A stretch of DNA of 64,000 nt from Cetobacterium somerae (GTDB lineage: Bacteria; Fusobacteriota; Fusobacteriia; Fusobacteriales; Fusobacteriaceae). Position numbers and translations under genes: made by a program. Location: positions 558,001 through 622,000 of the forward strand of contig NZ_CP092520.1 of the NCBI RefSeq assembly GCF_022430525.1, given 5' to 3'. The stretch's first letter is position 1. Every line of letters starts with the position of its first letter. The notes beneath the pieces were generated by a model that made no database searches, was not told where the DNA came from, and saw nothing but the letters and a program-made list of their open reading frames with translations. This document shows, in pieces, positions 38,496 through 44,550 of the stretch.

Positions 38496-38834
38496 CAAAC
38501 TTTTTTTATTTTTTTGAATTTTTTTATTTTTTATCTTAATACATATAATTAAAGTAGTTTTACGTTATTTATATAAAAAATATTTAGAAAATAATTTAAA
38601 TAAAAGTGTAAAAAATTAATTTTTTAAAATAATATTATAATATTGATAAATTAGTTGGATATTATTACATTTGAATATAATTTTATATTTTATTTTTTTT
38701 AAATATATATTTAGAAGATTTAATAATTATAGTTTAATTTTGAATAATTTATAAAGATATAAAAACAATATACTTTCGATTTGTTTCGTTTTAAAATATA
38801 AAGAATAAGTCTTATATATTAAATTAATAAAAGA

Positions 38835-38875
38835 TTGTTTATAGTTGTTTTAGTTGTTTATAGTTGTTTATATTG
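38835..38875 (+). repeat. Four short direct repeats in the AT-rich origin region
   Basis: TTGTTTATAG (38835), TTGTTTTAG (38845), TTGTTTATAG (38854) and TTGTTTATAT (38864) lie head to tail, about 90 bases left of the first iteron. They resemble AT-rich repeats found at strand-opening sites. Confidence 0.5.
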
Positions 38876-38960
38876 TTGTAAAGTAAAAAATAAAAATAGA
38901 AGATGCTTTTAATATAGATAAAATAAGGCTTGATAAGAAATTATAAATAAAATTTAATGA

Positions 38961-39066
38961 CCGCAGATGTTGTATATATATATCCACTAGTGTTGTATTA
39001 GTATGTCCGTAGATATTGTATATAAAAGCCATTAATGTTGTATTTTAAAAGCCATTAATGTTGTAT
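38961..39066 (+). repeat. Five forward 15-bp iterons with 22-23 bp period
   Basis: Copies start at 38961, 38984, 39007, 39029 and 39052. Consensus is CCRNTARTGTTGTAT: CCGCAGATGTTGTAT, CCACTAGTGTTGTAT, CCGTAGATATTGTAT, CCATTAATGTTGTAT (twice). The 22-23 bp spacing places them on the same helix face, as in Rep-binding plasmid iterons. Confidence 0.8.
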
Positions 39067-39157
39067 AAAAAAAAGTTTACAAAAATGTCCATTTGTATAG
39101 ACTAATTAAATGAAAAAATTTATTAATCTTAATTAAAGTAAGAAAAACAACAAAATA

Positions 39158-39254
39158 ATACAACACTAATGGTAAAAAAAGTTGAAAAAAAGCTTTTTTT
39201 ATTGTAAAATATACAGCATAAGAGGATAAAAAAATAAATATACAGCATTAAAGG
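39158..39254 (-). repeat. Three reverse-oriented iterons at the rep promoter and ribosome site
   Basis: Reverse copies are ATACAACACTAATGG (39158-39172), ATACAGCATAAGAGG (39211-39225) and ATACAGCATTAAAGG (39240-39254). The last includes the AAGG of the rep ribosome site, so Rep binding here would affect its own expression. Confidence 0.65.
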
Positions 39255-39264
39255 ACTGGTGAAA

Positions 39265-41271
39265 ATGAAAAAAGTAAAAAGATTTGATATTCCTATGAAT
39301 CAAGTTATTGATACAGGTCCAAGTGAAATAGTTGAAAAATTTTTAGATGTTTCTGAAATTGAAAATGAAAAAAGTCATAGTCTAGTTAGAATAGATATAA
39401 ATATGATTGAATATCCACTATTTACGAAAAGTACAAGTAAGAAAAAAAATCAAATAATAAGATATTTTTTTAATAGATCAAAAGAAGCATATATTCAGGT
39501 CAATCCTACATCTGGAGATTATATTCCAGGAGAACTTGAAGAAAGAGTATTTATAGCTTTATTAAAAATAATGAGAGATAAGAGATATCACAATACTTTT
39601 TATACAACAATAAGTGAGATTTTAACAAGCATGGGAATTGCACAAGAATCATTTAAGGGATTTTATGGAAGAATTTCAAAAGCATTAATAAGATTATCAC
39701 AAACAAGTTATACGTTTAAGAATTCTTTATACTCCAATAAAATTAAAGGGATTATTGAAGAACAAATTAATACAAATATTATGAATATTCATATGATATC
39801 CTTAAAACAGGCCCAAGAATCAGAAAAAGAATTATTTACTGATAGAAGAATAAAAGAAGTAATAAAAGTATCAATATCAGAACATTTTTATGATAATATA
39901 ATAAGAAAAGGTTATTTGGTATATGATTCTCAACTACTTTTAAGTATGGATAACCCAATTACAAGGGCATTATATATGCTTATTAATAAATTAAGATTTA
40001 ATAGAATGTACATAAAAGTTCTTTCAATAAACTTAATTAAAAGAATCCCTTTAAGTGAGAATATTCAAAAAATTGGAAGAACTATAAAGGTTATTGAAAA
40101 GAGCTGTCAAGAATTGAAAAAAATGAGTTTAATAGCAGATTATGCAATTATTAAAAATAGTAAATGGATTGAATCTGAATTTGAATTTTATTTTAATGAA
40201 TCACACAATGAGTTAAAACAATCATATTTTTATGATGATAAAAATCATTTTGATAATTTACTAATAACTCATACAGATAGCGGAGTAGATTTACCAAACG
40301 ATGGAAACAAACATTTTGAAGCTGTAAAGGCTGAAACTGTGGATAGAATTCCAACTAATGAAAAATTAGAAGAAATTTTAAAAATACTACCGTCTAAAGC
40401 TAGGGAATTAAAGACACTACCAAAAGTTATTAAAGATGGAATAAGACAGTACGGATTTGAACATATTAAATTAGTATCCGAATATATAAAAGTACAAAAA
40501 GTAAGTAATATTAGAAGTTATATGATACAAGCTTTATCAAAAGGCTGGGCTGAAGATTATATACAACAGAAGAAAAAAAATACAGCACCTAAGGTCAATA
40601 ATGAAGATTTGAAATTAATGAATTTAGATATAGAAGTTCCAAAATCTTTGGAAAATGGGTTAGAAATAGAAAAATTCTTAACAAGAATTACATTGGAAGA
40701 AAAAGAAAAAATAGAAAAAGAAGCATATAAAGATTATATAAAAATGTGTGGAGTAGAGGGAAAAATACAAAAAATGGCCTTTACTGCAGCTAAAGACAAA
40801 ATTGTAAAAGATTATTTAGATAAAAATTTGAAAAAATATACAATAGAAGAGGATAAAAAAGAAAGTATCGTCTTAGAAAGTTCAGTTATTGATGAAAAAG
40901 AAGTATTAAATGAAATAAATACAACACAAACGTCGATAAATAACTATATACAAGAGATTGAGATAATAGAAGAAAAAATAGATACAATACAAGTGGCCAA
41001 AAAAGAAATTAAATCAATTATAGAAATAAATACAGCAGATGTGGCCAATATAGATAAAAATATTGAAGTTAAAAAAATATATAAAAATATGTCAATGTTT
41101 CAGTTAGATATTTTAGATATTTTAGAAGGAGAAAATATAAAAGAAGTTAATAAAATTATTCGATTATTAGGAATAACTAAATTTTTTGAGGGAGAATTAG
41201 GAAATTTACATGTTATTTTAGAATATAATGAAGATGAAGAAAGTTTAATAAAAATAAAACCTTTAAAATAA
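39265..41271 (+). CDS. rep: Plasmid-type replication initiator protein
   Basis: I start this 668-residue protein at ATG 39265 because AAGGA lies nine bases upstream; a GTG six bases earlier is possible but too close to it. The N-terminal 310 residues (IEYPLFTKST, YIQVNPTSGDYIPGELEERVFIALLKIMRDKRYHNT cut here in two blocks, then DNPITRALYMLINKLRFNRM) look like the paired winged-helix initiators of the RPA/Rep_3 kind. The remaining 350 residues are charged, helical and low in conserved motifs. It should bind the iterons and open the origin. Three reverse iterons lie upstream and four iteron-like 15-mers lie within the coding region. I am sure of an initiator role from context, less so of the precise family. 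Confidence 0.72.
   Translation: MKKVKRFDIPMNQVIDTGPSEIVEKFLDVSEIENEKSHSLVRIDINMIEYPLFTKSTSKKKNQIIRYFFNRSKEAYIQVNPTSGDYIPGELEERVFIALLKIMRDKRYHNTFYTTISEILTSMGIAQESFKGFYGRISKALIRLSQTSYTFKNSLYSNKIKGIIEEQINTNIMNIHMISLKQAQESEKELFTDRRIKEVIKVSISEHFYDNIIRKGYLVYDSQLLLSMDNPITRALYMLINKLRFNRMYIKVLSINLIKRIPLSENIQKIGRTIKVIEKSCQELKKMSLIADYAIIKNSKWIESEFEFYFNESHNELKQSYFYDDKNHFDNLLITHTDSGVDLPNDGNKHFEAVKAETVDRIPTNEKLEEILKILPSKARELKTLPKVIKDGIRQYGFEHIKLVSEYIKVQKVSNIRSYMIQALSKGWAEDYIQQKKKNTAPKVNNEDLKLMNLDIEVPKSLENGLEIEKFLTRITLEEKEKIEKEAYKDYIKMCGVEGKIQKMAFTAAKDKIVKDYLDKNLKKYTIEEDKKESIVLESSVIDEKEVLNEINTTQTSINNYIQEIEIIEEKIDTIQVAKKEIKSIIEINTADVANIDKNIEVKKIYKNMSMFQLDILDILEGENIKEVNKIIRLLGITKFFEGELGNLHVILEYNEDEESLIKIKPLK
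40580..41044 (-). repeat. Iteron-like sites inside the rep coding region
   Basis: Reverse-oriented copies are ATACAGCACCTAAGG (40580-40594), ATACAACACAAACGT (40919-40933), ATACAATACAAGTGG (40982-40996) and ATACAGCAGATGTGG (41030-41044). They fall in the poorly conserved C-terminal half of Rep. Confidence 0.5.
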
Positions 41272-41457: not shown

Positions 41458-41715
41458 TTACTCAGTAATAGATAAAATATAAGATATTCTTTCAGAAGAA
41501 AGAGTATATTTATAAACTTTTTCATCACCTTTAGGTGTTTTTATAAGAATATCAAAATTACCTTCAGATACTTCTGACATTTTTAAAATATCAAAATTAT
41601 CAATATCTAAGTCTTCAGATATATTATCTAAAAAATCATCCTCAATTTCAAATTCAAAATATTCGTTATTATGTTCAATAACATAAAAAAAATCTACAAA
41701 ATTAAATAGTTTCAT
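41458..41715 (-). CDS. Small acidic protein downstream of parB
   Basis: This 85-residue protein (MKLFNFVDFFYVIE...) is strongly acidic and has no signal or membrane segment. I do not recognise it. It starts 20 bases after the ParB-like stop, behind AAAGGAATAAT, and ends before the shared terminator, so it is the third gene of the partition operon. Its position suggests a role linked to replicon maintenance, but nothing in the sequence shows it; a small plasmid-housekeeping protein is one possibility. Confidence 0.65.
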   Translation of the reverse strand: MKLFNFVDFFYVIEHNNEYFEFEIEDDFLDNISEDLDIDNFDILKMSEVSEGNFDILIKTPKGDEKVYKYTLSSERISYILSITE

Positions 41716-41735: not shown

Positions 41736-42479
41736 TTAGTTTAGTTTTTCAATTTCAATAAGTAAGCTTTTAATCTCTTTGTTGAGAAGCTCAATTTTTT
41801 CATATACTGTTTTTGCTTTATTTGAATCTAAAGTTGAAGATTCTACTTTGTTTTCAATGAGAGTGGATATATTAGAGTTTAATTTATTGAATAATTTTTC
41901 AATAGAATCAAATTCTGAAACTTTAGGAGATTCGTTTTTTAAAGTATTTTTAAGAATAATATATTCTTTTCTAGTTTTTATTTGCTTATTTAAAACTGCA
42001 TTAATTAAATCCTTATTTGCATTAGGAGCAGAAATTTCATAAGTTAATGATAACGGAAGGGTTTCAAAATAAAATTGATCTTCTGACGTAAGACAATTAT
42101 TTTTTATAAATTTAAAACGATTTATTAATCTTTCAGCACTTTTTTTACCAATTTTCATATGCTCTAACCAAATTGAAAAAGTTCCATTTTTATGATTTGC
42201 ATATTTTTCGTTTGCTTCATTTAGTATTTCCCCAGCTTTAGTATGATAATTACTTTTAGCTAAGTTTAAAAGAGATTCATATTTTAATAAATCATTTTTC
42301 ATTTCTAAATCTTGTATATCTTCATAATTAAATAAAACTTCATTATCAGGTAGAAAATCCTTTTCAATAACAGTTATTTCAAACTCTTTAGATTCAATAT
42401 TTTGTTTAACTGGAGATTCTTTTTTTTTGAAAGAATCTTGTTTTAATCTATCTAAAACATTAATTTTTTTATTAATCAT
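41736..42479 (-). CDS. parB: ParB-like centromere-binding protein (DUF3102-like HTH)
   Basis: I start this 247-residue protein at ATG 42479 (MINKKINVLDRLKQ), which overlaps the parA stop by eight bases and has GGGGG upstream. It lacks the GERR/CTPase motif of canonical ParB. The middle (about 90-160) contains LAKSNYHTKAGEILNEANE and WLEHMKIGKKSAERLINRF, like the DUF3102 helix-turn-helix proteins. The C-terminal 40 residues look like a coiled coil (TVYEKIELLNKEIKSLLIEIEKL). With ParA it should segregate the replicon; the likely binding site is the 29-bp repeat array. The ParB assignment rests mainly on context. Confidence 0.65.
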   Translation of the reverse strand: MINKKINVLDRLKQDSFKKKESPVKQNIESKEFEITVIEKDFLPDNEVLFNYEDIQDLEMKNDLLKYESLLNLAKSNYHTKAGEILNEANEKYANHKNGTFSIWLEHMKIGKKSAERLINRFKFIKNNCLTSEDQFYFETLPLSLTYEISAPNANKDLINAVLNKQIKTRKEYIILKNTLKNESPKVSEFDSIEKLFNKLNSNISTLIENKVESSTLDSNKAKTVYEKIELLNKEIKSLLIEIEKLN

Positions 42480-43188
42480 TAATAATTCCCCCAATAATTT
42501 CACCATATAAACTTTGTAATTCTTCAGCTTTTTTAGATTGAGTTTCCCAGACTGTTTTGCCTTTTTCTGAAAGTTGTTCTTCAATAACACTTTCTGGAAT
42601 AGGATTTGTTAATGTAACACCTGTATCACTAAAAAAGTTAGATAGATTTTGGAAGTATTCTCTTGAGATTTTAGTATTTCTATATAAATTAGGAACGATT
42701 TGAGTTATTTTATTTCCTTCAGCTTTTTCTATTAATCTTGTAATACCAGCAGTACTTAACTTATCAAGTTTGATAGGAACAATAATTTCATCAGTAATTT
42801 CTAAAATAATATCATTAAGTACATTAAAAACAGGAGCACAATCAACAATTATAAAATCATAATTATCTTTTAATAAATTAAAAGTATTTCTGATTTTACT
42901 TTTTAAATTTATTCCAAAAATATCTGTTTCAACAGGAAAATAGTCTAGATTTTCTCTGATTTTTATTTTTATTTCTTCACCATTTTGAACAAAAGATTTA
43001 AAACCTTTACCACCTTCGAACCATCCACCTAAAAGTATTAAACTGTCATTTTGTGCATCTGAAGTAATTAGGGCAGTTTTAAAGTCTAACATAGCAAGAC
43101 CATGTGCAATATTTTTTGATAAAGTTGATTTTCCAACTCCACCTTTGTTATTTTTTATAGTTATTATTTTCCCCATTATTAACGCCAC
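42472..43188 (-). CDS. parA: ParA-family partition ATPase
   Basis: This protein of about 238 residues has the deviant Walker A motif KGGVGKST (residues 15-22 from the GTG start), the Walker B-like DFIIVDCAP and a PIKLDKLSTAG stretch. It lacks an N-terminal HTH, which places it with type Ib or chromosomal-type ParAs. ParA ATP cycling moves replicons apart on the nucleoid. The start is uncertain: GTG 43188 or ATG 43176 (MGKIITIKNN), since the GGAGG at 43214-43210 is about 20 bases away from the first. The gene overlaps parB by eight bases, and its promoter abuts the repeat array. Confidence 0.88.
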   Translation of the reverse strand: MALIMGKIITIKNNKGGVGKSTLSKNIAHGLAMLDFKTALITSDAQNDSLILLGGWFEGGKGFKSFVQNGEEIKIKIRENLDYFPVETDIFGINLKSKIRNTFNLLKDNYDFIIVDCAPVFNVLNDIILEITDEIIVPIKLDKLSTAGITRLIEKAEGNKITQIVPNLYRNTKISREYFQNLSNFFSDTGVTLTNPIPESVIEEQLSEKGKTVWETQSKKAEELQSLYGEIIGGIIND

Positions 43189-43229: not shown

Positions 43230-43258
43230 AGTATAATTTAAAAATGGAAAATAATCAA
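43230..43258 (-). promoter_or_regulatory. Promoter of the parAB operon
   Basis: Minus-strand TTGATT (43258-43253) and TATACT (43235-43230) are 17 bases apart. The 16-bp inverted repeat begins at the -35 box. Confidence 0.65.
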
Positions 43259-43291
43259 TTTTTTTATCCATATTTTATGGATAAAAAAATT
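43257..43291. promoter_or_regulatory. Perfect 16-bp inverted repeat between parA promoter and repeat array
   Basis: AATTTTTTTATCCATA (43257-43272) pairs with TATGGATAAAAAAATT (43276-43291) around a 3-base centre. It touches the parA -35 and the first 29-bp repeat. It may be an operator for ParA/ParB or part of the partition site. Confidence 0.6.
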
Positions 43292-43641
43292 AAAACACGA
43301 CAATTTGTCGCAATAAAATTAAAACACGACAATTTGTCGCAATAAAATTAAAACACGACAATTTGTCGCAATAAAATTAAAACACGACAATTTGTCGCAA
43401 TAAAATTAAAACACGACAATTTGTCGCAATAAAATTAAAACACGACAATTTGTCGCAATAAAATTAAAACACGACAATTTGTCGCAATAAAATTAAAACA
43501 CGACAATTTGTCGCAATAAAATTAAAACACGACAATTTGTCGCAATAAAATTAAAACACGACAATTTGTCGCAATAAAATTAAAACACGACAATTTGTCG
43601 CAATAAAATTAAAACACGACAATTTGTCGCAATAAAATTAA
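43286..43641. repeat. Twelve tandem 29-bp repeats with CGACAA-T-TTGTCG core (probable parS)
   Basis: The core CACGACAATTTGTCGCAAT recurs every 29 bases, with repeat units anchored at 43292, 43321, 43350 and so on to 43611, essentially without mismatches. Each unit holds a 6+1+6 perfect palindrome and an AT spacer. The array lies directly upstream of parAB, where plasmid centromeres are found. There are no unique spacers, so it is not a CRISPR array. Confidence 0.85.
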
Positions 43642-43680
43642 ACATATGTTATAATAGAAATAAAAAAAGAGGTAATTGTA

Positions 43681-44550
43681 ATGAAATTTAAAGTAACTGA
43701 AAAAAGTGAATTGATGAAATTTTTAATAGATAATTTGTCAAAGCAAAGTAAAAATAATATAAAAACACTTTTATCAAAAGAACAAGTTGGAGTAAATGGA
43801 AAAATAGAAAGACAGTTTAATTTTATTTTAAACCCTGGGGATGAAGTAATAATAAATTGGAATAAAAATAGGAATGATAAAACTCCAAAAGGAATAAAAA
43901 TTTTATTTGAAGATAATGACATAATTGTAATAGAAAAAGAAGAAGGATTATTATCTATATCAACAGATAAAAAAAGCAATGAAAGAACTGCATATAAATT
44001 ATTAATGGACTATATGAAGTCAAAAGATAAAAAAGAAAGAATATTTATTGTTCATAGATTAGATAAAGATACATCAGGTGTGATGATTTTTGCTAAATCA
44101 GAAAAAATAAAAACAGAACTTCAAGAGAATTGGGATACTCTTGTTTTAGAAAGAGAATATGCTGTTATAGTTGAAGGTATTGTTAAAGAAAAAAAAGGAC
44201 AAATTAAATCATATTTAAAAGATAATAAGGCTTTTGTGACTTATTCAGTAAAAGATGATAAAACAGGTGGAAAATTAGCAATTACAAATTATAAAGTTGA
44301 AAAAGTAAAAGGAAAATATACATATTTAAAAGCTTCTTTAGAAACTGGAAGAAAAAATCAAATTAGAGTTCATATGAGTGATATAGGTCATCCGGTAGTT
44401 GGTGATAAAAAGTACGGAGCACAAACAAATATTCTAAAAAGATTGGGGTTACATGCGTATACATTAAAAATAAAACATCCTGTAACTAATAAAGAAATGA
44501 GTTTTGTATCGCCTACTCCAAAAGAATTTTCTAGAATTATAGGAGAGTAA
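43681..44550 (+). CDS. RluA-family pseudouridine synthase
   Basis: This 289-residue protein has an N-terminal S4-like RNA-binding domain (about 1-60) and an RluA catalytic domain with HRLDKDTSGVMIF (catalytic Asp128), AREY-like EREYAV and GRKNQIRVHM near the end. It isomerises uridines in rRNA or tRNA; the exact site (RluA, C or D type) is not clear. GAGGTAATTGTA precedes the ATG. It starts 40 bases after the repeat array, and one base separates its stop from the NUDIX start, so the two are translationally linked. Confidence 0.92.
   Translation: MKFKVTEKSELMKFLIDNLSKQSKNNIKTLLSKEQVGVNGKIERQFNFILNPGDEVIINWNKNRNDKTPKGIKILFEDNDIIVIEKEEGLLSISTDKKSNERTAYKLLMDYMKSKDKKERIFIVHRLDKDTSGVMIFAKSEKIKTELQENWDTLVLEREYAVIVEGIVKEKKGQIKSYLKDNKAFVTYSVKDDKTGGKLAITNYKVEKVKGKYTYLKASLETGRKNQIRVHMSDIGHPVVGDKKYGAQTNILKRLGLHAYTLKIKHPVTNKEMSFVSPTPKEFSRIIGE

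Follow-up and report, generated by a model that had tools for sequence, protein, structure and literature searches.

The tandem repeat array upstream of a parA-parB-like gene pair on the second replicon of Cetobacterium somerae CS2105-BJ most probably serves as the cis-acting centromere, and probably doubles as the autoregulatory operator, of a partition system of the ParA type by which this 705-kb replicon would be segregated. The window, a 64,000-nucleotide stretch of contig NZ_CP092520.1 (positions 558,001 to 622,000), belongs to the replicon designated 'plasmid 1' (704,842 bp) in the published genome (PMC10268390). Features of the locus are listed in Table 1.

Table 1. Features of the origin and partition region, in window positions
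Feature	Position	Strand	Basis
AT-rich TTGTTTATAG repeats, unwinding-element-like, upstream of iterons	38834..38877	+	TRF
Replication iterons, 22-23-bp direct repeats, about CCATTAGTGTTGTAT	38968..39072	+	TRF, sequence, motif search
Replication initiator gene, rep (RepA/TrfA-like)	39259..41271	+	tblastn matches to Reps of Cetobacterium plasmids, to RepA of Sebaldella and to a TrfA; orthologues
85-aa acidic protein, downstream of parB-like	41458..41715	-	family searches, tblastn
ParB-like protein, 247 aa, proposed array-binding protein	41736..42479	-	alignments, AlphaFold2 models, Foldseek, distant UPF0137 matches
Walker ATPase of ParA type, 234 aa, lacking an N-terminal HTH	42472..43176	-	Pfam AAA_31 (8e-24); PDB ParA/Soj/ParF matches
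parA promoter-like site, TTGATT-17-TATACT	43230..43258	-	consensus match only
35-nt palindrome AATTTTTTTATCCATATTTTATGGATAAAAAAATT, between parA promoter and array	43257..43291	.	sequence, species variants, fold z-score -4.9
Array, proposed centromere (parS-like)	43286..43642	.	TRF, exact-unit check, pattern searches, orthologous arrays
rluA extended -10 (TGTTATAAT), directly at array edge	43647..43655	+	read from sequence
rluA-type pseudouridine synthase, divergent neighbour bounding the array in Cetobacterium	43681..44550	+	Pfam, synteny

The repeats form one tandem array in the parA-rluA intergenic gap, with a period of 29, 12.3 copies, 100% match and zero indels in TRF. Twelve full units, letter-identical to AAAATTAAAACACGACAATTTGTCGCAAT, are followed by 9 nt of a thirteenth, and each contains a 13-bp palindrome, CGACAA-T-TTGTCG, set in an AT-rich spacer and recurring 12 times at exactly 29 bp. 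The preliminary description, which reported twelve identical 29-bp repeats with this core upstream of parAB, was accurate in both respects, with the end of the array moved from 43641 to 43642. No further core was found in the window with up to 2 mismatches (0.53 expected from shuffles, maximum 3), and no other exact core was present in the whole 2.97-Mb genome; a system of dispersed chromosomal parS sites was rejected on these grounds. A CRISPR array was also rejected, the units being contiguous and identical throughout, with no unique spacers.

From left to right, the locus comprises the AT-rich repeats, the iterons, rep (+), the gene for the 85-aa protein (-), parB-like (-), parA (-), the 35-nt palindrome that adjoins the parA promoter, the array itself and, on its far side, rluA (+) with a NUDIX gene (+). 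The 664-kb p1 of C. somerae strain 'ceto' has these features in identical order and agrees in the start of parA, and other Cetobacterium keep the order on large contigs, of 610 kb in G005 and 459 kb in G008. parA and parB-like form an operon, the end of the first overlapping the start of the second. The N-terminal HTH regulatory domain, a trait of type Ia systems (F, P1), is absent from ParA, whose ATPase fold begins at the first residues; the small ParA without HTH, with AAA_31 and with ParF among its PDB matches, is a trait of type Ib. In the 35-nt palindrome the inner letters vary by species (ATGGAT, CCGGAT and TAGAT types), with the symmetry kept in most and broken in G012. The 85-aa acidic protein is conserved within the genus, had no orthologue by tblastn in G011 or in the sister genus, matched no known family in Pfam, NCBIfam or PHROGs, and is a possible third component.

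The genome consists of contigs of 1,904,440, 704,842, 181,744, 128,183, 40,685, 9,413 and 4,104 bp. GC skew, computed on sampled stretches of the 705-kb replicon, is for the most part below zero on the left side of the rep locus and above zero on its right side, with a second sign change near 300 kb. Given the switch at rep, this gene together with its iterons is the probable origin of bidirectional replication, and the array lies at the same switch, about 4 kb from the iterons. The iteron motif (about CCATTAGTGTTGTAT, at 22-23 bp spacing) is unrelated to the array motif CGACAANTTGTCG. An exact inverted iteron copy (ATACAACACTAATGG) was also observed at 39158-39172, past the direct iterons and ahead of the start of rep, a placement resembling that in autorepressed iteron plasmids. 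Rep obtained no named function from Pfam, NCBIfam or PHROGs. The window part of the replicon also carries a GC-rich rRNA operon with tRNA genes; the idea that the tRNA cluster is exclusive to this replicon, which would imply essentiality, was rejected, as copies also occur on the main chromosome. The replicon is chromid-like in scale and build. Of the plasmid centromere proposed in the preliminary description, the centromere-like array beside parAB stands, and the plasmid is replaced by a replicon of chromid scale. On two other plasmids of strain 'ceto', p4 (L010:3360-7632) and p2 (L011:3415-7632), rep is split after about codon 74 and is interrupted by a group II intron ltrA gene.

Replication genes elsewhere in the family were also surveyed. 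DnaA (TIGR00362) scored over the cut-off in 0 of 61 Fusobacteriaceae genomes, versus a strong match in 34 of 35 other Fusobacteriales (30 over the cut-off); Fusobacteriaceae thus appear to lack DnaA. The main-chromosome GC skew of CS2105-BJ flips at the contig start (G000 C1:1-1851 and C1:1897001-1904440), where the usual dnaA neighbours mnmG-mnmE-jag-yidC-rnpA, named from their translations, are present, with rpmH read by eye. Beyond them lie iteron-like repeats, AAATATTATTGATAATATACA, and a RepA of plasmid type with 616 aa (PF10134, 8.4e-8), which, by the synteny of this one genome, occupies the place of dnaA. Homologues of the chromosomal RepA were found in 59 of the 61 Fusobacteriaceae (partial only in G050 and G055) versus 1 of the 35 other Fusobacteriales. 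No description of RepA in place of dnaA in Fusobacteriaceae was found in the open-access literature, and the matter deserves its own study. A profile search of the whole genome for ParB_N (PF02195) found no such protein on the main chromosome; the only two matches were at C2:691782-692045 (in a 462-aa frame apart from the par locus) and C5:37683-37832.

Comparison of 61 Fusobacteriaceae genomes showed arrays only in Cetobacterium and only at this locus, where orthologous arrays occupy the parA-rluA gap across the genus with 3 to 12 copies where complete and periods of 29, 30, 37 or 39 bp. Apart from the array of CS2105-BJ (12 × 29 bp, centre T), they were 8 × 29 in strain 'ceto' (centre A), 9 × 29 in G005 (A), 3 × 29 in G009 (T), 10 × 37 in G008 (T), 3 × 39 in G012 (T), at least 7 × 29 in G003 (A; containing an assembly gap) and at least 3 × 30 in G011 (two-base centre). 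Contig ends truncate G006 and G010, and the draft G004 shows one copy, perhaps because the assembly collapsed. A search for the same core near parAB in other Fusobacteriota, suggested in the preliminary description, located it within the same genus.

Units are identical inside each array and different between arrays: the CGACAA/TTGTCG arms are invariant in all of them, and the centre (T, A or 2 nt) and the period vary array-wide. Between the two C. somerae arrays the same base, the T/A centre, differs in every copy, and the 400 bp of left flank contain 4 differences. Since every copy has changed alike, and 8 or 12 independent changes are not credible, one change has evidently spread through the array, which points to homogenization by concerted evolution, presumably through unequal exchange, slippage or conversion. 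The strong homogenization envisaged earlier is borne out by these patterns; recent expansion, offered with it, is not the best reading, because the array is genus-wide and therefore old, and the recent part would be the homogenization. The unit spacings of 29, 37 and 39 bp do not correspond to whole helical turns (10.5), so that sites occupied independently would be a better fit than a rigid phased wrap.

G001, a genome of the sister genus, carries a single perfect palindrome there, ATATATTGCGACAA-A-TTGTCGCAATATAT, with 14-bp arms (29 bp), about 85 bp upstream of parA. Its relative G002 keeps the rep and rluA surroundings and has neither parA, nor parB-like, nor any site there. The site therefore appears to go with parAB and not with rep or rluA, an association, not proof, between related and hence non-independent genomes, with the co-absence taken from a single genome. 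Single core matches scattered through the rest of the family, in G014, G041, G045 and G050, are not arrays.

The 247-aa ParB-like protein begins with about 46 disordered residues, including a conserved basic helix VLDRLKQDSFKKK, as judged from alignments and AlphaFold2. In the AlphaFold2 models these are followed by a helical domain at about residues 50-182 (pLDDT 90.5 when modelled alone; 74 for the full-length model) and a C-terminal coiled coil. The prediction is all-helical with no beta strand, and the protein is thus not of the small ribbon-helix-helix type of type Ib. Profile searches revealed no Pfam partition domain and no match to ParB_N (PF02195), the CTPase domain that marks the ParB of type Ia and chromosomal systems, and the disordered stretch before the helical domain leaves no room for the approximately 95-residue ParB_N domain. 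No named function was obtained from Pfam, NCBIfam or PHROGs, and neither the protein sequence nor the profile of its family retrieved any sequence from the PDB. ParB/Noc/Spo0J-parS structures recur among weak Foldseek matches (TM up to 0.55; E about 3-7, not significant), and the likeness of the helical domain to the DNA-binding domain of ParB is weak and suggestive only.

Binding of the array by a DUF3102-like protein had been proposed in the preliminary description. DUF3102 (PF11300) matched neither this protein nor any of 17 relatives scanned, and was reached only via a chain of phage homologues at E=0.033, below the cut-off; the label is thus a weak one. Recognition of the array by the neighbouring ParB-like protein, the best reading, has the support of association only. 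The UPF0137/pGP6-D family (PF03677) likewise did not match the window protein itself; it was matched by 4 of 18 family members (best E 8.2e-7), and the three for which single scores were obtained reached 18-19 bits, below the cut-off of 34. This link is somewhat better than that to DUF3102. Homologues at 30-35% adjoin ParA on other Fusobacteriota contigs. A scan of genome contigs gave four loci only, all from uncultured Cetobacterium, and a scan of viral sequences with the alignment found none. Homologues of the central domain in Firmicutes lie in prophage-looking regions; where annotation exists it shows no ParA alongside, and the single region inspected for an array of this kind had none; this context is therefore uninformative on partition.

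In the proposed mechanism, dimers of the ParB-like protein, paired by the C-terminal coiled coil, would bind each palindrome through the helical central domain. The protein has no CTP-clamp domain with which to spread from one site, and a dense partition complex would be built from many adjacent occupied sites; many sites may thus replace spreading where the clamp is absent. The basic N-terminal helix would stimulate the ATPase of the neighbouring ParA, which would move sister replicons apart on the nucleoid, and occupancy of the array near the parA promoter would feed back on parAB. Counting for a centromere are the position of the array immediately upstream of parA, as with type Ib centromeres, the specificity of the core to this locus, the conservation of the arms while the spacing varies, the lone palindrome of the sister genus, the co-absence in G002, the architecture of the ParB-like protein, its distant kin beside ParA or matching UPF0137, and the precedents of F sopC and the Deinococcus repeats. 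Counting against it are the lack of a Pfam partition domain and of significant Foldseek matches to ParB, and the relatives with 3 copies and the sister genus with 1, which show that a long array is not strictly needed. Since a single sopC repeat reportedly can suffice for mini-F (Biek & Shi 1994, cited in PMC6238139), relatives with 1 to 3 copies do not contradict a centromere.

Also counting against a centromere is the rluA promoter that the array borders, as gene regulation alone could hold the array in place. A multi-copy operator, at which the ParB-like or another DNA-binding protein would control parAB and/or rluA with no centromere role, fits an array set between two divergent promoters, that of parA on one side and the rluA extended -10 at the other edge, and it fits the single operator-like palindrome of the sister genus; twelve sites over about 350 bp, however, go far beyond the needs of an operator, and the array travels with parAB, not with rluA, which G002 retains with no site. 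We consider an operator alone unlikely. Tandem repeats at origins are often iterons, and arrays upstream of parAB in Deinococcus were reported as both ori and parS (PMC7671480), but for the present array a role as Rep-binding iterons, or as an incompatibility or handcuffing locus controlling replication copy number, is very improbable: both this replicon and its relatives have other, distinct iterons, accompanied by an AT-rich element, just ahead of rep; G002 retains the same Rep although it has no array; and the core is absent from other plasmids of the Rep family.

The minus-strand units match a terminator-like pattern (12 found against 0.3 expected), as would be anticipated of tandem weak terminators or hairpins stopping transcription towards parA. 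However, the stem is weak, at -6 kcal/mol, a palindrome of any kind with an AT-rich spacer behind it would yield this pattern 12 times over, and arms that are invariant between species suggest a protein site and not a stem kept by compensatory change, leaving such RNA elements only a slight chance of being the explanation. Least probable is a selfish or neutral minisatellite, expanded by slippage and functionless; the copies are perfectly identical and their number varies among strains and species (12, 8, 9, 10, 3), but the same locus and core arms are found in every assessable species with this parAB, while spacer length and centre change.

With a centromere as the preferred reading, the large secondary replicons of Cetobacterium, bacteria abundant in the fish gut, would have a mapped partition locus, and this locus would point to a ParB-like family without a CTPase clamp. 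It would provide a compact system with natural differences between species in the copy number and spacing of the array, and a practical stability module for Fusobacteriota vectors. No earlier description of a Cetobacterium partition locus turned up in the open-access literature, a limited set. A bolder proposal, which we hold only tentatively and regard as possible rather than probable, is that the partner protein founds a centromere-binding class with a UPF0137/pGP6-like helical domain and a coiled coil but no CTP clamp, common to Fusobacteriota and chlamydial plasmids. Such a protein could not load and slide from one parS, and a homogenized array, evolving concertedly with its binder, would therefore mark the chromid-sized cargo.

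Among known systems, the chlamydial pair pGP5/pGP6 resembles the present one in combining a ParA with a UPF0137-type partner, pGP6 being a member of UPF0137, and distant kin of the Cetobacterium protein match that family, whereas the window protein itself does not. On the chlamydial plasmid, pGP6 is predicted to be a ParB, paired with the ParA pGP5 (PMC11895440). On secondary replicons of Deinococcus radiodurans, cisII and cisMP consist of 11 and 8 copies of an 18-bp repeat upstream of parAB and are bound by their cognate ParBs (PMC7671480). They share with Cetobacterium the direct-repeat arrays upstream of parAB of secondary replicons, but are shorter, alike at consensus level, and accompanied by DnaA boxes and ori function, whereas in Cetobacterium no letter differs between repeats and the origin is a separate one, with iterons, at rep.

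In F, sopC lies downstream of sopB; SopB has ParB_N, and SopA has an HTH. This centromere (parS-F) adjoins the par operon and consists of twelve 43-bp units in tandem, most of which contain an inverted repeat to which the ParB protein binds (PMC6238139). Twelve tandem units with an inverted repeat in each, adjoining parAB, are likewise present in Cetobacterium; unlike those of sopC, these units measure 29 bp, precede parA and accompany a protein without ParB_N. Type Ib systems (TP228 parFGH, pSM19035, pCXC100) combine a ParA without HTH with centromere repeats that precede the operon and may also serve as its operator, and their binding protein has a flexible N-terminal tail (PMC5016525). The ParA without HTH, the position of the repeats ahead of the par operon and the predicted flexible tail of the partner agree with this type, but its binders are small (ribbon-helix-helix in ParG and omega), whereas the Cetobacterium partner has 247 aa and is predicted to be all-helical with a coiled coil, and its site is a 13-bp palindrome every 29 bp. 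By analogy, the Cetobacterium array is best read as working like sopC or the type Ib centromeres, while it would fall outside both classes as defined.
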